Position numbers and translations under genes: made by a program
Assembly: GCF_900070205.1 (NCBI RefSeq)
Contig: NZ_FAOO01000008.1
Location: 21,982 to 85,981 of the forward strand
Length of the DNA: 64,000 bases
Reading direction: 5' to 3'
From: Candidatus Thermokryptus mobilis
GTDB taxonomy: Bacteria > Bacteroidota > Ignavibacteria > Kryptoniales > Kryptoniaceae
Shown here: positions 2,565-38,365 of the stretch, piece by piece
How the letters are laid out: each line of letters opens with the position of its first letter
How positions within the stretch are numbered: the first letter of the stretch is position 1
Notes under the pieces: generated by a model
Told to the model about the DNA's origin: nothing
What the model saw: only the letters and a program-made list of their open reading frames with translations
The model's database searches: none

Positions 2565-4169
2565 ATGCAGATACTTGGCATTGGAATTTTAACTTGGATT
2601 GTCTTTCTACCCGTTGTTGCAATGGTAATTGTCCTTGCGATTCCGAAGGGAAGGGAAAATTTGATAAAATGGATAGCTGTCATAGCCACAGGAATTCAGC
2701 TTGTCCTTGCTGTTATTATGTTGCTTAATTACCGTTATGACCTTGCTGGGATAAATACGCTTGAGGGATTTCAATTCGTTGAGAAATATCGTTGGATTGA
2801 TGTCAGTGGTGTTGCTTGGTTTGGTAGGATAGTGATAGAGTATTTTCTTGGAGTTGATGGTTTGAGTATGCCGATGGTTTTTTTAACCGCTTTGATTTCA
2901 TTTATCGGAGCAATCGCCTCTTGGGAATTGCCGAAGACGAAGGGATATTATGCACTTTACCTTTTGCTTGACACTGGGATGATGGGTGTCTTTGTAGCGC
3001 TTGATTTCTTCCTGTTTTATATCTTTTGGGAGGTTATGTTACTTCCGATGTATTTTCTCATAGGGATATGGGGCGGTCCAAGAAGGGAATACGCGGCAAT
3101 AAAGTTTTTCATTTATACTTTGCTTGGTTCTGTTTTGATGCTTCTTGTTATGATAGGTTTATATTTCAGCACAAGCATCATTGACACAGTCACTGGGGAG
3201 AGAATCCATACTTTCAATATGCTTGCTATGATGGACCCGAAAAATTATGAGCCAGGTTCAATCTTTTCTGGCATGCACACAACTTGGAGATACATAGCTT
3301 ATATTGCTTTGTTTATCGGGTTTGCGATAAAGGTTCCGATTTTCCCGTTCCATACTTGGCTTCCTGATGCACATGTTGAAGCACCAACGCCAATCAGCGT
3401 CATCCTTGCTGGGATTCTCTTGAAGATGGGAACCTATGGGATGTTGAGGATAAGTTTTCCAATTTTCCCAGATGGGATGTTGAAATATGCTTTGCCTATG
3501 GCTTTGCTTGGTTTTATAAATATCGTTTACGGAGCTTTGGCTGCAATGGCACAGGAGGACTTTAAAAAGTTGATCGCTTATTCAAGTATAAGCCATATGG
3601 GTTATGTTGTGCTTGGAATGTCAGCGCTTAACACTCAGGCAGTCACAGGGGCGATAATGCAGATGTTTAACCACGGGACGATAACAGCTATGTTGTTTTT
3701 GATCGTTGGGGTTCTCTATGATAGGGCTCATACGAGAGGACTTAATGAATTTGGTGGATTAGCAAATCAGATGCCAAAGTATTTTGGAATCGTAATAATT
3801 GCTTTCTTCGCTGCACTTGGTCTTCCAGGTTTAAGTGGTTTTATAAGTGAGGCGTTTGTTTTCCTTGGAGCTTTTCAAACATATAAATGGATTACAATCT
3901 TTTCCGCAACTGGTGTTATTTTGACAGCTGGATATATACTCTGGACTACACAGCGTCTCTTCTTTGGTCAAATTCCGGAGAGATGGAAAAATCTTCCAGA
4001 CATCAACGCAAGAGAGCTTGTGACTCTTGTCCCGCTTGCGGTGATAGTTATATTTCTTGGTGTTTATCCGATGCCTTTGATCTCAGTTATGAATGCCTCT
4101 GTGAATCATCTTGTTGGGTTTGTATCCGAAATGGGACAGATGGGATCACAGCTTGGAATTTTACCTTGA
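2565..4169 (+). CDS. nuoM: NADH-quinone oxidoreductase subunit M
   Basis: Second antiporter-like subunit of complex I, 534 residues and about 14 membrane helices. Recognisable motifs are the N-terminal FLGVDGLSMPMVFLTAL, the glutamate-bearing helix FYIFWEVMLLPMYFLIGIWG (the conserved membrane Glu of NuoM), the WLPDAHVEAPTPISVILAG signature, and KKLIAYSSISHMGYV. It couples quinone reduction to proton transfer in the inner membrane. It sits between nuoL (33-base gap) and nuoN (24-base gap), so the three genes form the end of a nuo operon. Length is normal for the family. Confidence 0.96.
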   Translation: MQILGIGILTWIVFLPVVAMVIVLAIPKGRENLIKWIAVIATGIQLVLAVIMLLNYRYDLAGINTLEGFQFVEKYRWIDVSGVAWFGRIVIEYFLGVDGLSMPMVFLTALISFIGAIASWELPKTKGYYALYLLLDTGMMGVFVALDFFLFYIFWEVMLLPMYFLIGIWGGPRREYAAIKFFIYTLLGSVLMLLVMIGLYFSTSIIDTVTGERIHTFNMLAMMDPKNYEPGSIFSGMHTTWRYIAYIALFIGFAIKVPIFPFHTWLPDAHVEAPTPISVILAGILLKMGTYGMLRISFPIFPDGMLKYALPMALLGFINIVYGALAAMAQEDFKKLIAYSSISHMGYVVLGMSALNTQAVTGAIMQMFNHGTITAMLFLIVGVLYDRAHTRGLNEFGGLANQMPKYFGIVIIAFFAALGLPGLSGFISEAFVFLGAFQTYKWITIFSATGVILTAGYILWTTQRLFFGQIPERWKNLPDINARELVTLVPLAVIVIFLGVYPMPLISVMNASVNHLVGFVSEMGQMGSQLGILP

Positions 4170-29543: not shown

Positions 29544-32213
29544 ATGACACACCCATTTAAAGAATCAATAAGCACGATAAACATCGGTAGAAGGAAATTG
29601 AAAATTTTCAATCTTACCTGGCTTGAACAGCAAGGGCTTGTCAATCTTTCAAAACTCCCTTATACGATAAGAATACTGCTTGAAAACATGGTCAGAAATT
29701 GCGATAATTATCTCGTCACAGAGGAGGATGTTAAAACTGTAGCTGGGTGGAAGCCGAAACCGGAGTTAAAAGAAATTCCTTATATGCCTGCAAGGGTTTT
29801 GCTTCAGGATTTTACAGGTGTTCCTTGCGTCGTTGACCTTGCTTCAATGAGAGATGCTGTTAAGAAACTTGGGAAAGACCCTAAAATTATAAACCCGCTT
29901 AAACCAGTTGACCTTGTCATTGATCACTCAGTTCAAGTTGAATATTTTGGCACATCTTATGCTTTTGATTGGAATGTAAAAAGGGAGTTTGAACTTAACA
30001 GAGAAAGGTATGTGCTTTTGAAGTGGGCTCAGAAATCGTTCAAGAATTTCAGGGTTGTTCCCCCTGGCACAGGGATAATCCATCAAGTAAATCTTGAATA
30101 TCTTTCAAGTGTCGTAAGGGTTGAAGATGGTTTTGCTTTTCCAGATACGCTTGTCGGCACCGACTCCCATACGACTATGATAAACGGCATCGGTGTTCTC
30201 GGATGGGGTGTTGGTGGAATTGAAGCTGAGGCAGTAATGCTCGGACAACCATATTATATCACAGTCCCTGAAGTCATAGGTGTGAAGTTAACTGGGGAAT
30301 TACCCGAGGGAGCAACCGCAACTGATCTTGTTTTGACCGTTACGAATGTTTTGCGAAAGAAAGGCGTCGTTGAAAAATTCGTTGAGTTCTTTGGACCTGG
30401 GGTGTCAAAATTGTCAGCCGCTGATAGAGCAACGATTGCGAATATGGCTCCTGAATATGGAGCAACTTGTGGGTTTTTCCCAATTGATGATGAAACACTG
30501 AAATATCTTAAGCTAACCGGCAGGGAAAATTTAGCAAAAATTGTTGAGGTTTATGCCAAGGAGCAATTCCTCTTCAGGTATGAGGATTCACCAATACCTG
30601 AATATACCGATGTGGTTGAAATTGATATGAGCCAGATAGAGCCGACGCTTGCAGGACCAAGCCGTCCGCAGGATAAAGTTTTGCTGAAGGATATAAAAGT
30701 TCATTTTGAAAAAGTATTGAAGGAGAATTACAAGGTTGATAGTGAGCCGAGAAAATCTGTTGAGATTTTTTATCGTGGTAATAAGGTTGAACTTACCCAT
30801 GGATCAATTGCTATAGCAGCTATAACTTCCTGCACAAACACTTCTAATCCGACTATTTTGATAGGTGCCGGTTTACTTGCGAAAAAAGCGATTGAAAAGG
30901 GATTAACAGTTAAGCCCTATGTTAAAACAAGCTTAGCCCCCGGGTCACGGGTCGTTACTGAATACTTGCAAAAAGCTGGTCTTATGCCATACCTTGAATC
31001 GCTTGGTTTTCATCTTGTCGGTTATGGCTGCACAACTTGCATTGGCAACAGCGGACCACTACCAGAGCCAATTTCAAAGGCGATCTCTGAAAATAATCTT
31101 ATCGTCTGCGCTGTTTTAAGTGGCAACAGAAATTTTGAAGCACGAATCCATCCACTTGTTAAGGCGAATTACCTTGCATCTCCAATCCTTGTGGTTGCTT
31201 ACGCTATAGCTGGTAGAATTGACATTGATTTTAACACCGAGCCAATCGGATATGACCCGAATGGAAATCCTGTTTATTTGAAAGATATCTGGCCAAGTCA
31301 AGAAGAGATAAAGGAAACAATTGAAAAGGTCCTTGAGCCGAAATTATTCAAGAAGAAATATGCCGATATTTTTGATGGAACAGAATATTGGAAGGAAATA
31401 AATGTAAAAGATAGCGAGCTTTTTGAATGGGACATAAATTCAACTTATATACAAAACCCACCATTTTTTGAGAATCTGACGCTTGAACCTCAACCACCAA
31501 GCGATATAGTCAACGCTTACTGCCTCGCTGTATTTGGGGACTCAATCACGACCGACCATATTTCACCCGCTGGTTCAATTTCAGAGAATAGTCCCGCTGG
31601 CAAGTATCTGATTGAGCGTGGTGTCCCGAAATCTGAATTTAACACATTCGGCGCAAGAAGAGGAGCTCACGAGGTTATGATGCGCGGTACATTTGGAAAT
31701 GTAAGAATTAAGAACCTTATGACCCCCGAAGTTGAAGGTGGGTGGACGATATACATCCCAACCGGCGAGAAAATGTTTATCTATGATGCAGCAATGAAAT
31801 ATAAGAAAGAAAACCGTCCTCTCATTGTGATTGCGGGGAAAGAATATGGAACAGGTAGCTCGCGCGATTGGGCAGCGAAAGGAACATATTTACTTGGCGT
31901 TAAAGCTGTCCTTGCTGAAAGCTTTGAAAGGATACACCGAAGCAATCTTGTAGGAATGGGTGTCCTACCACTTCAATTTAAAGAAGGGGAAAATAGAGAA
32001 ACGCTTGGATTAACAGGCTTTGAAGAATACACGATAGAGGGCATAGCTGAAGGTTTATATCCACGTAAAATTTTGAAGGTTACAGCTAGATCCAAAGATG
32101 GACAATCAAAAACTTTTGAAGTCATTGCCCGTCTTGATACACCGGTTGAGGTTGAATACTATATCAATGGTGGAATAATGCAAACTGTCTTGAGAAAGTT
32201 GATCAAGGATTAG
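29544..32213 (+). CDS. acnA: Aconitate hydratase (AcnA/IRP type)
   Basis: TCA-cycle enzyme interconverting citrate and isocitrate through a [4Fe-4S] cluster, 889 residues. Cluster cysteines appear in AAITSCTNTSNP and in GYGCTTCIGNSG. The active-site regions DHSVQVEYFG, GTDSHTTMINGIGVLGWGVGG and the swivel domain GDSITTDHISPAGSI and KEYGTGSSRDWAAKG are intact. Length and motif spelling match AcnA/IRP1-type rather than AcnB. It stands as a single gene, divergent from the M28 peptidase, and ends 21 bases before the rubrerythrin promoter. Confidence 0.97.
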   Translation: MTHPFKESISTINIGRRKLKIFNLTWLEQQGLVNLSKLPYTIRILLENMVRNCDNYLVTEEDVKTVAGWKPKPELKEIPYMPARVLLQDFTGVPCVVDLASMRDAVKKLGKDPKIINPLKPVDLVIDHSVQVEYFGTSYAFDWNVKREFELNRERYVLLKWAQKSFKNFRVVPPGTGIIHQVNLEYLSSVVRVEDGFAFPDTLVGTDSHTTMINGIGVLGWGVGGIEAEAVMLGQPYYITVPEVIGVKLTGELPEGATATDLVLTVTNVLRKKGVVEKFVEFFGPGVSKLSAADRATIANMAPEYGATCGFFPIDDETLKYLKLTGRENLAKIVEVYAKEQFLFRYEDSPIPEYTDVVEIDMSQIEPTLAGPSRPQDKVLLKDIKVHFEKVLKENYKVDSEPRKSVEIFYRGNKVELTHGSIAIAAITSCTNTSNPTILIGAGLLAKKAIEKGLTVKPYVKTSLAPGSRVVTEYLQKAGLMPYLESLGFHLVGYGCTTCIGNSGPLPEPISKAISENNLIVCAVLSGNRNFEARIHPLVKANYLASPILVVAYAIAGRIDIDFNTEPIGYDPNGNPVYLKDIWPSQEEIKETIEKVLEPKLFKKKYADIFDGTEYWKEINVKDSELFEWDINSTYIQNPPFFENLTLEPQPPSDIVNAYCLAVFGDSITTDHISPAGSISENSPAGKYLIERGVPKSEFNTFGARRGAHEVMMRGTFGNVRIKNLMTPEVEGGWTIYIPTGEKMFIYDAAMKYKKENRPLIVIAGKEYGTGSSRDWAAKGTYLLGVKAVLAESFERIHRSNLVGMGVLPLQFKEGENRETLGLTGFEEYTIEGIAEGLYPRKILKVTARSKDGQSKTFEVIARLDTPVEVEYYINGGIMQTVLRKLIKD

Positions 32214-32234
32214 AAAATTCTAATCTTTTTAAAC

Positions 32235-32263
32235 TTGACAAATTGATTTTAAAAGTGTATATT
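32235..32263 (+). promoter_or_regulatory. Consensus promoter of the rubrerythrin gene
   Basis: TTGACA (32235-32240), a 17-base spacer and TATATT (32258-32263). This is a nearly perfect vegetative promoter, implying strong expression unless repressed. A predicted start point near 32270 puts the PerR/Fur-like operator within the first transcribed bases. Confidence 0.8.
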
Positions 32264-32274
32264 ACAATTGCAAA

Positions 32275-32289
32275 TAGTAATAATTATCA
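32275..32289 (+). promoter_or_regulatory. PerR/Fur-like operator before rubrerythrin
   Basis: TAGTAATAATTATCA matches the 7-1-7 PerR box TTATAATnATTATAA at 12 of 15 positions, including the whole central AAT-A-ATTAT. It lies 12 bases after the -10 element, so a bound repressor would block initiation. A PerR-type regulator is encoded 3 kb downstream at 35281. The match was made by eye and the binding is inferred. Confidence 0.7.
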
Positions 32290-32316
32290 TTTAAAAACAA
32301 AATTTGGAGTAAAGCC

Positions 32317-32757
32317 ATGGCAAAATCACTTGCTGGAACAAAGACGCTTGAGAATTTGAAGGCTGGATTTGCCGGTGAATCCCAAGCGAACAGGCGTTAT
32401 CTTTATTTTGCAAGACAAGCAGACATTGAGGGGTATCCCGATATTGCAGGTGTCTTTAGAGACACGGCAGAGGGTGAGACCGGACACGCTTTTGGGCATT
32501 TTGACTTTTTAAGGCAGTATGGTGCTGGGGATCCGGTGACAGGCGAGCCAGTCGGTGATACAATTTCAAATCTTAAATCTGCCATAGCAGGCGAAACATA
32601 TGAATATACGGAGATGTATCCTGGGTTTGCGAAGACAGCACGGGAGGAAGGATTTGATGATATCGCTGAGTGGTTTGAAACACTCGCCAGAGCTGAGAAA
32701 TCCCATGCTGGTAGATTCCAAAAGGCGCTTGAAAGCTTGACTGGTGGTAGCAAGTAA
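32317..32757 (+). CDS. Rubrerythrin (lacking the rubredoxin domain)
   Basis: Di-iron ferritin-like peroxidase that reduces hydrogen peroxide to water. The diiron ligands are visible: Glu21, the Glu54-x2-His57 pair, Glu93/Glu96 and Glu127-x2-His130. The usual C-terminal rubredoxin [Fe(SCys)4] domain is absent: the 146-residue protein ends right after the four-helix bundle, like sulerythrin-type short forms. Electrons must therefore come from another protein, and the Fe-S oxidoreductase encoded next is a candidate. A consensus promoter and PerR-like box precede it and a terminator follows. Confidence 0.94.
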
Positions 32758-32768
32758 TTTTTAAAAGT

Positions 32769-32796
32769 GCGGGGCATTGCCTCGCCCCGCTTTTTT
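32769..32796 (+). terminator. Intrinsic terminator after rubrerythrin
   Basis: GCGGGGC (32769-32775) and GCCCCGC (32784-32790) with an 8-base loop, then six T. It separates rubrerythrin from the Fe-S oxidoreductase, so partial read-through or a second promoter is needed for the downstream genes. Confidence 0.92.
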
Positions 32797-32825
32797 ATTT
32801 TTAAAAATTAAATCTGGGAAAGCTC

Positions 32826-34100
32826 ATGGTCTTTGATTTAAAAGACCCCAAGTTTTGGGATGAAGAAGCACTTTTAAAGGAGATGCATAGAATTTTTGAT
32901 ATCTGTAATGGTTGTCGTCTTTGTTACAATCTTTGTCCGTCATTTGAGTTTTTATTTAAAAAGATTGATGAAACCGACAATCTTGATGATTTAACAAAAG
33001 AGGATTATTTCAAAGTCGTTGAACTTTGTTATGATTGTAAACTTTGTTTCCCTAAGTGTCCGTATACACCACCGCATCACTACGAGCTTGATTTCCCGAG
33101 GTTGATGTTAAGGGCAAAAGCTGTGAAAGCGAAGAAAGAAGGGATTCCATTGCGTGATAAAATTCTTGGGCAAGCAGATTTGATAGGGAAACTTGGGAGT
33201 AAATTTGCGGGTTTGATCAATCTTGCGAACAGATTAAAAGTTAGCAGAATTTTAATGGAAAAGATACTTGGTATCCACAGGGAGAGGAATTTACCTGAAT
33301 ATCATAGCGAAACATTTGAAAGGTGGTTTAAGAGATATTCAAAGCAAAATGGAAAGGAAGAGAAAGGAACAAAGAAAGTTGTTCTCTTTTACACTTGCAC
33401 CGTTAATTACAATGAACCCGAACTTGGAAAAGCGATTGTTAAAGTTTTAGAACATAATAATATTGATGTTGTAGTTCCAGAGCAAAAATGTTGCGGTATG
33501 CCTTTTCTTGATGGCGGTGATATTAATTCAGCGATAAAGAGTGCAACTTTTAATGTTAAGTCGCTTGTGAATTTCGTAAAACAAGGTTTTGATGTCGTTG
33601 TTCCAGCGCCAACTTGCAGTTATATGTTGAAGCAGGAATATCCGATGTTGCTGCCGGATGATGAAAATGCAAAATTGGTTTCTCAACATACCTATGATAT
33701 TTCTGAGTATTTGATGAAAATTCACCGAGAAGGAAAGTTAAAGACCGACTTTAAGAACCCACAAGGGAAGATTATTTATCATTTACCCTGTCATCTGAAA
33801 GCACAGAATATAGGTTACAAGTCAAGGGATTTACTTGAGTTGATACCTGGAACAGAGGTTGAAATGATTCAGAGATGCTCTGGTCACGACGGAACTTGGA
33901 GTATGAAGAAGGAATTTTTTGAGATGTCAATGCGTGTTGGGAAGCCAATTTTTGATAAGGTTAATCAAGATGATTCCGGTTCATCGGTTTGTTCTGATTG
34001 CTTGTTAGCACAATTGCAGATTGAAAAAGGAACTGGAAAGAAGGGTTTACATCCAATACAAATTCTTTACAACGCATATGGTTTAAATGAGGAAAAATAA
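32826..34100 (+). CDS. Two-CCG-domain Fe-S oxidoreductase (GlpC/HdrD-like)
   Basis: Cytosolic iron-sulfur protein of 424 residues. Two [4Fe-4S] ferredoxin sites lie at the N-terminus: Cys27-30-33-37 and Cys68-71-74-78. Two CCG-type cysteine domains follow: PEQKCCGMPFLDGG, and a variant ending CSGHDGTWSMKKEFF, then a terminal SSVCSDCLLAQLQ. This architecture is shared by GlpC, GlcF and HdrD, which pass electrons to or from quinones or thiols. The CSGHDGTW form is, to my knowledge, typical of proteins encoded with rubrerythrin and DUF3501. With rubrerythrin lacking its own rubredoxin, a role as its electron donor is a reasonable inference. It is followed by dps after 23 bases. Confidence 0.86.
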   Translation: MVFDLKDPKFWDEEALLKEMHRIFDICNGCRLCYNLCPSFEFLFKKIDETDNLDDLTKEDYFKVVELCYDCKLCFPKCPYTPPHHYELDFPRLMLRAKAVKAKKEGIPLRDKILGQADLIGKLGSKFAGLINLANRLKVSRILMEKILGIHRERNLPEYHSETFERWFKRYSKQNGKEEKGTKKVVLFYTCTVNYNEPELGKAIVKVLEHNNIDVVVPEQKCCGMPFLDGGDINSAIKSATFNVKSLVNFVKQGFDVVVPAPTCSYMLKQEYPMLLPDDENAKLVSQHTYDISEYLMKIHREGKLKTDFKNPQGKIIYHLPCHLKAQNIGYKSRDLLELIPGTEVEMIQRCSGHDGTWSMKKEFFEMSMRVGKPIFDKVNQDDSGSSVCSDCLLAQLQIEKGTGKKGLHPIQILYNAYGLNEEK

Positions 34101-34123
34101 CAAAAAAATCTATGGAGGTAGTT

Positions 34124-34597
34124 ATGAAGCCGAATATCGGAATAAGTGAAAAAAATCTTGAAGGAGTAATTAAAATTTTAAGCACCTTGCTCGCTGATGA
34201 ATATGTCCTCTATACAAAAGCGAGAAATTATCACTGGAATGTCGTAGGTCCACAATTTAATGAACTTCACAAATTCTTTCAGTCAATTTATGAAGAGCTG
34301 AATGAACACATTGATGACATAGCTGAGAGAATACGGTCACTTGGTGGGTGGTCAGTTGCAACTTTGAGTGAATTTTTGCAATTGACGAGATTGAAAGAGC
34401 ATCCTGGGGAATATCCCGACGCAAGGAAGATGATTGAGAACCTTTTGAATGATTATGAAGCAGTTATAAGAACTTTGAGAGAGGATATTGTTAAGGTGGG
34501 TGATGAATACAAAGACCTTGGTACTGCTGATTTTCTTACCGAGCTTATGGAAAAACATGAGAAGACGGCTTGGATGTTAAGGTCTTTTCTTTCGTGA
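34124..34597 (+). CDS. dps: Dps-family DNA-protecting ferritin
   Basis: Miniferritin of 157 residues that stores iron and removes peroxide in a 12-subunit shell. The inter-subunit ferroxidase ligands keep exact family spacing: His37 and His49 (NYHWNVVGPQFNELH), Asp64 and Glu68 (EHIDDIAERIRSLGG). The frame opens at ATG 34112, but ATG 34124 has a GGAGGT ribosome site just upstream and fits the family start. There is no basic N-terminal tail, so DNA binding is uncertain. It lies directly after the Fe-S oxidoreductase and ends at a terminator, consistent with a peroxide/iron operon. Confidence 0.94.
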   Translation: MKPNIGISEKNLEGVIKILSTLLADEYVLYTKARNYHWNVVGPQFNELHKFFQSIYEELNEHIDDIAERIRSLGGWSVATLSEFLQLTRLKEHPGEYPDARKMIENLLNDYEAVIRTLREDIVKVGDEYKDLGTADFLTELMEKHEKTAWMLRSFLS

Positions 34598-34603
34598 TAT
34601 TTT

Positions 34604-34635
34604 AGGGGAGGGGATCAAATCCCTTCCCTTCTTTT
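34604..34635 (+). terminator. Intrinsic terminator after dps
   Basis: AGGGGAGGGGAT (34604-34615) and ATCCCTTCCCTT (34619-34630) pair with two G-U wobbles around a 3-base loop, then a T-rich tail (cttttg). It sits 7 bases after the dps stop. Confidence 0.78.
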
Positions 34636-34667
34636 GTTAAATTTTAAAATTAAACTTCGGAGTTAAG

Positions 34668-35258
34668 ATGAGAAAAGTTGAACTTACGGAAGTGAAAAAC
34701 ATATATGAGTATGAGAAGATCAGAGATGATTTCAGGAAGTATATAATTGAGTTGAAAAAAAGACGCAGAATCTCCGTCGGTGATAGAGTTACGCTTGTGT
34801 TTGAAAATCACGACACGGTTCTTTTTCAGATCCAAGAGATGATGAGGGCAGAGAGAATGGTGGATGACGACGAGATAAAATTTGAGGTTGAGACATATAA
34901 TCAGCTTATACCTGAAAAAGATGAGTTAAGCGCTACATTGTTTATAGAGGTTGACGATCCGAAGCTACTCCGTCCAGTCCTTGATAGTTTTATAGGGCTT
35001 GACCGAGGTAATCATGTGTATTTGCAGATTGGGGATAAACATAAAATTTATGCTCAGTTTGAGGAGGGGCATAGCAAAGAAGATAGGATAAGCGCTGTTC
35101 ATTTTATTAAGTTCAAATTTACGCCCGAACAGATAAATGACTTTAAGGACTTTAGAAATGATGTCAAAGTGGTCATAGATCATCAAAATTACAAGGCGGA
35201 AGCGGTTATGAGCAATGAAATGAGGCAGGAATTGATAAAGGATTTTGACTCAGATTAA
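34668..35258 (+). CDS. DUF3501 family protein
   Basis: Soluble, highly charged protein of 196 residues with the DUF3501 pattern: YEYEKIRDDFRKYIIELKKRR, VTLVFENHDTVLFQIQEMMRAER and YNQLIPEKDELSATLFIEV. The second half has VYLQIGDKHKIYAQFEEGH and FIKFKFTPEQINDF. Biochemical function is unknown; the family is known mainly for co-occurring with rubrerythrin and Fe-S oxidoreductase genes, exactly the setting here. Conserved acidic residues and histidines could bind a metal, but no motif proves it. A GGAG ribosome site precedes the ATG, and the PerR-like regulator follows after 22 bases, so the two are probably co-transcribed. Confidence 0.83.
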   Translation: MRKVELTEVKNIYEYEKIRDDFRKYIIELKKRRRISVGDRVTLVFENHDTVLFQIQEMMRAERMVDDDEIKFEVETYNQLIPEKDELSATLFIEVDDPKLLRPVLDSFIGLDRGNHVYLQIGDKHKIYAQFEEGHSKEDRISAVHFIKFKFTPEQINDFKDFRNDVKVVIDHQNYKAEAVMSNEMRQELIKDFDSD

Positions 35259-35280
35259 AATTTTAGTGGAGTAATTTAAA

Positions 35281-35679
35281 ATGGCTAATCGTAGAGGGAG
35301 TAAACAAAGGGAAGCGATACTTCGTATCCTTCGGGATACGAATATTCATCCCACAGCTGATTGGATATATATGGAGGTGAAGAAGGTGATTCCGAATATA
35401 AGTCTTGGGACTGTGTATAGAAATTTGAATTTGTTAAGGGATGAGGGATTGATTCGTGAAGTTGTAATTCAAGGTTCTGCAAGCGCCAGATACGATGCTA
35501 ATCTTGAACCGCATCATCACTTTGTTTGTGTCGGTTGTAATTCGGTTTATGACTTGCCTTCACGAGGTGGGAATTTGAACATTGATGAGCTTTTGGTTGG
35601 ACGAAACTTTAAAGTGAAATTTGTCAAGGTTGACATCTTCGGGCTTTGTGATAAATGTCAGGCTAAGGACCTGCAATAG
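35281..35679 (+). CDS. Fur-family regulator, PerR-like
   Basis: Metal-dependent repressor of 132 residues. The winged helix covers about 1-75 (TADWIYMEVKKV, LGTVYRNLNLLRDEGLI). The PerR-type regulatory residues are present: His23 in NIHPTADWIY, Asp72 in ARYDAN, the cluster His78-80, and Asp91. Structural zinc is held by Cys83-x2-Cys86 and Cys123-x2-Cys126. Asp at position 72 and the location within a peroxide-defence cluster favour PerR (peroxide sensing by iron-catalysed His oxidation) over an iron-sensing Fur. Its likely target is the box before rubrerythrin. A strong terminator follows. Confidence 0.88.
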   Translation: MANRRGSKQREAILRILRDTNIHPTADWIYMEVKKVIPNISLGTVYRNLNLLRDEGLIREVVIQGSASARYDANLEPHHHFVCVGCNSVYDLPSRGGNLNIDELLVGRNFKVKFVKVDIFGLCDKCQAKDLQ

Positions 35680-35681
35680 TT

Positions 35682-35709
35682 AAGCGACCCGATTTCGGGT
35701 CGCTTTTTT
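35682..35709 (+). terminator. Intrinsic terminator after the PerR-like gene
   Basis: AAGCGACCCG and CGGGTCGCTT form a 10-bp stem with an ATTT loop, running into six T. It begins 2 bases after the stop codon and closes the peroxide-defence module. Confidence 0.94.
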
Positions 35710-35809
35710 ATTTTGATTTAAAGCACAATTTTTGATTCCTGGGTTGATATTTTGGGGAAAATTTTTAAAATTTCCTTGGATTTCAAATTAAAAATTTTGG
35801 AGGTACGCC

Positions 35810-38365
35810 ATGAAGGGATTTTTAGGTTTCATTTTAAGCGCTATTCTTTCAGCATCTGTTTTTTCACAAGATGCTGAAAAGGCGATCAAAAGGATGACGC
35901 AACCAGATGTCATGGTCGTAGTGGATGAGTATGTTGATGGAAGTTTCGTTGGGACACGGGCTATAGCTGTTAGCATTGAAAACGAACTTTTGAAAGAGGG
36001 GTTTAAGGTTATTGATTATCATATGTTTGAAAATCTGAGGGCAAAAGAGCTTGAAGCGTCCGAGGGAAATCCTGAAAAAGCAAGGGAATATTCAAACCGT
36101 TTTGGCGCTGAGATTATAATTCTTGGATATGCACAAGCTGAATACGGTGGGGAAACGGAGTTTTACGATGTAAAACAGCATAAATACACAGGACAGGTTG
36201 ACATTAAAATTATTTATGCTGAAACAGGTGAATTGATAGGTTCAGTTACAGCGAGTGATAGGAGATTTGGTCAAGATAAAAAGGGAGCGGTGAATGCATT
36301 GTTTAAAAGTTTAGCTTCAAAAGTTACTAAAAATGTTATAAGTAAGTTAAAGGAGAGAATGAAAGAGGAGGAGCAAGCGAGGAAAATTGAAATAGCAGTT
36401 TATGGAATTTCCCCGAGTAAGGCGCTTGCGCTTGAATCAAAGTTAAAAGATGCGATTTCATCTGTTAAGGCGTTAAAATATAAGTTTTTTGACACAAATG
36501 TCCTTGTCTTTGATGCTATTATTTCCAGTGAAGAGCAGCTCAGGCGTGAGCTGGCAAATTATGGAGAGCTTAAAATTGTGAAATTGACGCCGAGGCGGGT
36601 GACCTTAAGCCCGCCGGAGATGGAAAGGGAAGCAAAGTCAACGGCAACCGAGGGGATACTTGATATAGTTGATTTTTCAATTCCGCCGATTTTCCCATCC
36701 CAATATAGTTTTTATGCTTATAATCCGATCGGTCAATTGACGGTTGAAAATCCAACGAATAGGGAGATTCGCAATGTTAAAATTTCAATTTTGATCCCAG
36801 ATTATATGAAAGTGCCAAGTGAGAAAGTTGTTTCGGTGATTAAGCCGAATTCAAAAGAGCAAATAACTGTTCCAGTCACTTTTGACATTAAATCGTTGTT
36901 GAAGTTGAATGAAAATGTAATCGCACAAGCACAGGCAAAAGTTACCTACACATCTGGTGGCAAAGTTGAAGAGAGAAGTTTGTCAAAGCCAGTGACGATT
37001 TATAATAGAAATTCTATTTCATGGAGGATTCCTGAATCGGTTTGTTCTTTTGTCACACCAAATGATGGGGTCGTCAAGGAATTTGCAAGAGTTGTTCTTG
37101 GCTCGGTGAAACTTCCCGAGACAAACCTTCCAAGGAATGTAATCAATGCAATTGTCATTTATAATGCTGTTCGCACATACGGGATAAAATATGTTTCCGA
37201 CCCTTGGAAAGTCGCAGGTGGAGAAATTCTTGACAATGTTTATTTCCCAAGGGAGTTGCTTTATTATAAAACTGGTGACTGCGATGACCACGCTATTTTG
37301 CTTGCCTCTCTTCTTGAAAGCGTTGGAATTAGAACAGCTTTTATACTTACATCTGATCACATATTTTTGATTTTTGATACAGGTGTTCCAAAGAAGAACG
37401 CTTATCTTGTGAGTTTTAATCCTGGTGATTACATAATTTATGATGGCAGTGTTTGGTTGCCAATAGAGACGACTTTGATAAATGAATCCTTCACAACGGC
37501 TTGGAAGACAGGGGCAGAGGAGTATTATAAGCTTGGTGGTTTAGATAAGATTGGAGCATTGGAAGTTAAGGAAGGCATAATTTTTAAATCGGGAAATATC
37601 TATATAATTGATGTTCATCGGGGCTGGAAAGTTTTTCCACCTGTTGATGTTGAAGGACTCCCAGGACCACAGACAAAACCGGATATTTCGCTTGTCTCGT
37701 CAAGTGTATTAAAGGATTTAGATATGTTCAAGGAAAGTTACAGGCAGACATTAACAGAAATGATCAATACGCTTGGAAGCAAAGGGGATGAGGTTTCAAT
37801 TAATAAAATTGCAAAGATACTTGTTTTGTTTGATAGGTATGATGATGCTGAAAAGTATGTCTCAAAATTTTCTGGCGCTGTTACATATAATTCCCTTGGT
37901 AATATTTACTTTTTGAAAAATGAACCCTCAAAGGCGTTTGAATTTTACAAGAAAAGCATTGAACTTGACCCCAACGATGGGGGCGTTTATCTTAACGCTG
38001 GTCTTCTCTTTTATTTGAACGATGAACCCGAAACGGCACAGGAATTTTTTGAGCTGGCGATATCTAAATTTAAAACACCAGAAGAAGCATACGAGGTGCT
38101 TGGAATTGAAGATATATTGCGGGAGTTTGAGGGTGTAGCAGCTGAAAAGAAAGATGTTTCAAAGAAGCAAGTTTCAAAGGAGGAGTTGAAGAAATTAATT
38201 GAAGAAGCTTCAAAGGTATCAACTCAACAGTCAAAGAAAGGGAAGGAATACAAAAAAGAGGAAATTTTTGAAAAGGGACAGAATGTCTTTGTGTTTGGAG
38301 GTAGGAGAGGGGCTGACCCAACACAATTGCAGACGGTTAAATCGCTGCTTTACTGGAAGTTCTAA
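35810..38365 (+). CDS. Secreted transglutaminase-like and TPR protein
   Basis: Exported protein of 851 residues with a signal peptide (cleavage near FSQDAE). Residues about 30-185 resemble envelope proteins that bind or sense (VMVVVDEYVDGSFVGTRAIA). A CARDB-like beta-sandwich follows at about 285-395. A transglutaminase-like fold at about 430-580 carries the cysteine in TGDCDDHAILLASLLESVG and a downstream DHIFLIF. TPR repeats lie at about 685-755 (LGNIYFLKNEPSKAFEFYKKS). The C-terminus is Lys/Glu-rich. The Cys-His-Asp set is only partly clear, so it may be a protease-like or inactive scaffold domain. A GGAGG ribosome site precedes the start. The adenylate cyclase gene starts 11 bases after its stop. 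Confidence 0.75.
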   Translation: MKGFLGFILSAILSASVFSQDAEKAIKRMTQPDVMVVVDEYVDGSFVGTRAIAVSIENELLKEGFKVIDYHMFENLRAKELEASEGNPEKAREYSNRFGAEIIILGYAQAEYGGETEFYDVKQHKYTGQVDIKIIYAETGELIGSVTASDRRFGQDKKGAVNALFKSLASKVTKNVISKLKERMKEEEQARKIEIAVYGISPSKALALESKLKDAISSVKALKYKFFDTNVLVFDAIISSEEQLRRELANYGELKIVKLTPRRVTLSPPEMEREAKSTATEGILDIVDFSIPPIFPSQYSFYAYNPIGQLTVENPTNREIRNVKISILIPDYMKVPSEKVVSVIKPNSKEQITVPVTFDIKSLLKLNENVIAQAQAKVTYTSGGKVEERSLSKPVTIYNRNSISWRIPESVCSFVTPNDGVVKEFARVVLGSVKLPETNLPRNVINAIVIYNAVRTYGIKYVSDPWKVAGGEILDNVYFPRELLYYKTGDCDDHAILLASLLESVGIRTAFILTSDHIFLIFDTGVPKKNAYLVSFNPGDYIIYDGSVWLPIETTLINESFTTAWKTGAEEYYKLGGLDKIGALEVKEGIIFKSGNIYIIDVHRGWKVFPPVDVEGLPGPQTKPDISLVSSSVLKDLDMFKESYRQTLTEMINTLGSKGDEVSINKIAKILVLFDRYDDAEKYVSKFSGAVTYNSLGNIYFLKNEPSKAFEFYKKSIELDPNDGGVYLNAGLLFYLNDEPETAQEFFELAISKFKTPEEAYEVLGIEDILREFEGVAAEKKDVSKKQVSKEELKKLIEEASKVSTQQSKKGKEYKKEEIFEKGQNVFVFGGRRGADPTQLQTVKSLLYWKF

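Follow-up and report, generated by a model that had tools for sequence, protein, structure and literature searches.

A predicted PerR-type operator for rubrerythrin in the hot-spring bacterium Candidatus Thermokryptus mobilis

Rubrerythrin (rbr) heads a gene cluster of Candidatus Thermokryptus mobilis that closes with the gene of a Fur-family regulator, and a palindrome lies between the rbr promoter and the start codon. Is this palindrome the operator of rubrerythrin, bound by the PerR-type repressor that the cluster itself encodes? The features computed here are the promoter, the box, its conservation, the linkage to perR, the sensing residues of the regulator, a box shared with a catalase gene and the near-absence of other non-coding sites. 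Together they suggest that it is, with a probability that we put at roughly 0.8. The switch is of an ordinary and known kind, newly mapped in hot-spring Kryptoniota, and the members of this uncultured group thereby gain a concrete candidate for a peroxide-response switch as well as a usable box, approximately TAGKAAYNRTTMYTA.

The rubrerythrin promoter and its gene cluster

The palindrome TAGTAATAATTATCA lies at positions 32275-32289 of the window, i.e. the whole 64,000-nucleotide (64-kb) stretch of DNA that was analysed, and its sequence, coordinates and context were re-read from the window as they had first been given (Table 1). The rbr promoter, TTGACA-N17-TATATT, scores 11/12. The preliminary description had placed the box after this promoter and within the first transcribed bases of rbr, and the coordinates bear this out: transcription is predicted to start at about 32270, some 7 bases past the -10 hexamer, and the box would accordingly extend from about +6 to +20. 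A GGAG ribosome site near 32306 and the rbr ATG at 32317 follow. A search of positions 31900-36000 against Rfam for a leader RNA gave sub-threshold matches only.

A second, near-perfect palindrome, GATTAGAAAATTCTAATC, is found at 32208-32225, separated by 9 bases from the rbr -35 hexamer that follows, and is conserved in the genus as GATTAATAAATTCTAATC or with one or two changes. In 5/5 genomes scanned the GATTAATAAATTCTAATC motif recurs with a response-regulator gene on one side and a DUF2231-like/cytochrome locus on the other. The palindrome at 32208-32225 is possibly an activator site.

Table 1. Coordinates of the rbr promoter, the predicted operator and the genes of the cluster in the window
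Feature	Position	Strand	Remarks
-35 hexamer TTGACA, rbr promoter	32235..32240	+	Invariant in 6/6 genus genomes and 11/12 sister-family genomes; TTGACT in the remaining one
-10 hexamer TATATT	32258..32263	+	Spacer to -35 of 17 bp
PerR-type operator core (predicted), TAGTAAT-A-ATTATCA, 7-1-7	32275..32289	+	
Extended operator (predicted), AAATAGTAATAATTATCATTT, 10-1-10	32272..32292 (21 bp)	+	8/10 pairs complementary; read from sequence
19-bp operator version	32273-32291	+	Top window site under the sister-family matrix
rbr, single-domain 'aerobic-type' rubrerythrin	32317..32757	+	146 aa; without rubredoxin domain
Intrinsic terminator 3' of rbr	32769..32790	+	GC hairpin and T run; kept in 6/6 genus genomes
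Fe-S oxidoreductase (RFO)	32826..34100	+	Named after PMC5114695; separated from rbr by the terminator
Dps/ferritin-like protein	34112..34597	+	
DUF3501 protein	34668..35258	+	
perR, Fur-family PerR-type regulator	35281..35679	+	Candidate binder of the rbr operator; 3.0 kb from the box

Consensus sequences, conservation and a matrix from the sister family

The box had been introduced as a match to 12 of the 15 positions of the PerR box. That count stands if the N of the Bacillus PerR consensus TTATAATNATTATAA is included, but it carries no weight as evidence: 11/14 of the specified positions agree, and with up to three mismatches the consensus finds 11 sites in the window where 10.9 are expected by chance. 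A Bacillus-type PerR operator defined by its match to TTATAATNATTATAA was therefore dropped, and in AT-rich genomes matching to the Bacillus consensus makes a poor test. The evidence for an operator is instead conservation in relatives. By type the box appears to be the Desulfovibrio-like variant TAGKAATNRTTMCTA, already known but new to this lineage. A matrix made from the published Desulfovibrio sites only gives the window site 9.7 bits and rank 5 in 64 kb, which is a chance-level result, and gives 12-19 bits to most of the orthologous sites in sister genomes and to the catalase site described below.

The preliminary description had named a lack of conservation of the palindrome in close relatives as one outcome that would speak against its reading; when this test was run, the palindrome proved to be kept in all six congeneric genomes that hold rbr. 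Each of them has TTGACA-N17-TATATT followed by TAGTAATNRTTATYA at identical spacing, with the box centred 19 bases past the -10 hexamer. The DNA further upstream varies, with an aconitase gene in the window and in genome G006, and terminator-like hairpins in the others. Scanning seven genomes with the pattern TAGTAATNRTTATYATT returned a single exact match per rbr-holding genome, always at rbr; an exact match is absent from one genome, 78% complete, where rbr was not found either. Nearly all of the matches with at most two mismatches that were examined in the source genome are intragenic, and a control with the reversed pattern finds twice as many matches; nothing therefore points to further sites of this kind (the source-genome scans were pattern matching; the matrix scans covered the 64-kb window). 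Taken alone, the genus sequences show a 7-1-7 palindromy no better than that of column shuffles, since 1395-1403 of 2000 shuffles attain the best value; their 10-1-10 palindromy is modest (129 of 2000).

In all 12 sister-family genomes with an aligned rbr module, a TTGACA-type promoter is followed by a related palindrome of 7-1-7 form. These boxes are TAGGAAYNATTCCTA-like and centred 7-11 bases past the -10 hexamer, and their palindromy exceeds that of all 2000 column shuffles. A motif built from the rbr upstream regions of relatives, as had been proposed at the outset, thus became available in the form of a symmetrised 19-bp matrix trained on these twelve genomes, the genus itself being left out. 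It gives the window site 16.5 bits and ranks it first in 64 kb, ahead of a next site of 12.3 bits and against a shuffle expectation of 0.05. Symmetrised widths of 15, 19 and 21 bp all rank the site first (1.5 and 0.08 expected with the two other widths); this evidence is semi-independent, since the promoters are orthologous and the 19-bp width was chosen along with 15 and 21. No comparable site was found with this matrix elsewhere in the window, which agrees with the earlier observation that the other module genes have no such box.

These results bear on the suspicion that the box is a chance, palindrome-like look of an AT-rich untranslated leader. The leader is indeed AT-rich, much of the rbr promoter is conserved in the genus and consensus matching alone stays at the chance level; however, a matrix learned in a different family puts the site first in 64 kb (expectation 0.05), the box holds the same position in 6/6 genomes, and the sister family combines the palindrome with a co-occurrence at catalase. 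Coincidence is thereby reduced to the faintest of prospects.

The catalase co-occurrence came from a pattern built from the rbr operator alone and scanned against thirteen sister-family genomes. One of them, G013, holds exactly two exact matches, at the promoters of rbr and of a heme catalase gene. At the latter TTGACA-N17-TATATT runs directly into the box, a layout like that at rbr. The pairing of rbr with a catalase gene points to peroxide control as the function of the box. No clear box was found at the KatG and AhpC-like genes of the sister genomes, and catalase is absent from most of the others. In the sister genome G019 peroxiredoxin and catalase genes are adjacent, and the peroxiredoxin gene is closely preceded by a degenerate sequence that resembles the box (L251, about 3669-3690), a weak site of 4.5 bits.

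The candidate regulator and the predicted switch

A PerR-type protein with the sensing Asp and His residues had been noted 3 kb downstream, and the alignment upholds this. The perR product belongs to the Fur family (PF01475, 3.9e-25), has B. subtilis PerR as its best PDB match (1.1e-22) and aligns its regulatory ligands H23, D72, H78, H80 and D91 to H37, D85, H91, H93 and D104 of that protein; D91 is thereby the Asp by which PerR is told from Fur. The cysteines C83, C86, C123 and C126 correspond to the structural four-cysteine Zn site. With 115.8 bits the product falls below the cut-off of 200 bits of the NCBIfam PerR equivalog model NF047406, but equivalog models are clade-bound and the cut-off is a bookkeeping threshold, not a mechanistic feature. 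We call the regulator 'PerR-type', not an NF047406 equivalog, on the basis of its residues, its linkage and its predicted target.

The score below the equivalog cut-off nevertheless counts in favour of a regulator that binds the box but senses a metal (Mn or Fe) alone, and not peroxide. Among Fur-family regulators whose ligands are similar, some sense metals, and the oxidation of histidines cannot be read from sequence. Against this stand the complete set of five regulatory ligands, Asp91 (=Asp104) and His23 (=His37) among them, and the nature of the predicted targets, rubrerythrin and, in one relative, catalase, and we judge pure metal sensing to be unlikely.

The source genome has just one further Fur-family gene, which precedes a FeoA-like gene (fur-feoA), and an iron-sensing Fur from this locus could bind the box and place rubrerythrin under iron regulation. 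By consensus the box is slightly closer to the Bacillus Fur sequence (12/14) than to those of PerR (11/14) and Zur (11/14). Control by Fur is very unlikely all the same. Cross-control of rbr loses ground because fur-feoA has its own conserved upstream palindrome, different from the rbr box (TTTATTTAGATTAAATTTAAA in the genus, TTATTTAGACTAATTCTAAATAA in other families); in addition, its Fur has a Glu where PerR has Asp104, rbr is linked to perR and not to fur in the relatives examined, and the sister-family box would also serve a catalase. The TTATTTAGACTAATTCTAAATAA-like palindrome recurs before fur-feoA in several families of the class (L001, 1918-2039, and its homologues); judging from sequence, it looks like a Fur box peculiar to this class and differs from the classical one.

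Under control by the cluster's own PerR-type protein, a metal-bound PerR dimer would sit at about +6 to +20 of the strong TTGACA-N17-TATATT promoter, where it would prevent RNA polymerase from establishing an open complex or from escaping it. Peroxide would oxidise the histidines of the metal site, PerR would be released and rbr expressed. The terminator 3' of rbr would make rbr the main product, and read-through past it would supply the Fe-S oxidoreductase, Dps, DUF3501 and PerR; we infer binding, the response to metal and peroxide, the transcription start and the read-through from the features computed here. Since the terminator follows rbr and no comparable box is seen at other cluster genes, rbr is probably the main product, and the other genes are probably expressed by read-through or from promoters of their own.

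The preliminary description had cast the box as a roadblock, a term that proves too specific, as a box at about +6 to +20 lies inside the footprint of the initiating polymerase. The sister-family box is approximately one helical turn closer to the promoter than the genus box and reaches the -10 region. The footprint of an initiating RNA polymerase covers both positions, and occlusion or trapping of initiation is therefore likelier than a roadblock to elongation.

Rubrerythrin had also been put forward as possibly the main regulated output, and it still looks like the main direct PerR target in the genus: none of the other non-coding matches is conspicuous, and searches of the genus found neither catalase nor KatG nor, in five genomes, an AhpC-type peroxiredoxin (1-Cys-peroxiredoxin-C family). 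A more far-reaching and doubtful proposal is that PerR of the genus acts within its cluster on a single operator and so switches an aerobic-type rubrerythrin, which takes the place of catalase, KatG and AhpC. The promoter would then be under dual control, by PerR from about +13 and by a second factor at the palindrome upstream of the -35 hexamer that is shared with the DUF2231-like/cytochrome locus.

Related systems

A close precedent in box type is Desulfovibrio, where PerR sites were predicted at rbr2 (AATAGGAATCGTTCCTGTT), at ahpC (CAGGAATGATTCCTG) and at perR-rbr-rdl (Rodionov et al. 2004, PMC545781, Table 7) and were noted as not fitting the Bacillus consensus (PMC545781). Both systems appear to share the box type TAGKAATNRTTMCTA, and they have in common a perR gene that adjoins rubrerythrin and rbr-type targets (PMC545781). 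However, the Desulfovibrio regulon has several targets and rubredoxin-type partner genes, whereas here a single-domain rubrerythrin is accompanied by RFO and DUF3501 with apparently one target, and the box is less symmetrical than the Desulfovibrio sites. Bacillus subtilis PerR (2FE3, 3F8N) resembles the regulator in sequence (1e-22), in its five regulatory ligands and in its four-cysteine site, but the outer box positions differ (TTATAAT versus TAGTAAT/TGATAAT here) and the Bacillus regulon is large. In Clostridioides difficile, PerR has been shown experimentally to bind and repress the rbr1 promoter, and peroxide relieves this repression (PMC8546684). There, too, perR lies in the same locus as rubrerythrin, but the partner genes are a desulfoferrodoxin and a glutamate synthase-like gene, and the control is experimental in that organism and sequence-predicted in ours (PMC8546684).

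The aerobic-type rubrerythrin cluster RBR-RFO-DUF3501 has been described without a regulator (PMC5114695), and a single-domain rubrerythrin (ferriperoxin) acts as a peroxidase in Hydrogenobacter (PMC3317640). The same three genes, with a rubrerythrin devoid of a rubredoxin domain, recur here; the texts of PMC5114695 and PMC3317640 make no mention of PerR, whereas in the present cluster perR closes the row and dps is inserted. The aerobic-type rubrerythrin-RFO-DUF3501 cluster, for which PMC5114695 names no regulator, is probably a further case of PerR-type control of rubrerythrin.

The order rbr-RFO-(dps)-DUF3501-perR is common to both families, with rbr, RFO, DUF3501 and perR arranged alike in the six rbr-holding genomes of the genus and the twelve aligned ones of the sister family. 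Beyond them, 80 named loci of other phyla were compared; 49 have a Fur-family gene near aerobic-type rbr, usually just upstream, and boxes precede perR at the other-phyla loci L051 (TAGTAATTATTACTA) and L050 (TAGTAATTATTCCTA). In loci of the Acidimicrobiia type, perR is preceded by palindromes that resemble AACAAYNRTTGTT.
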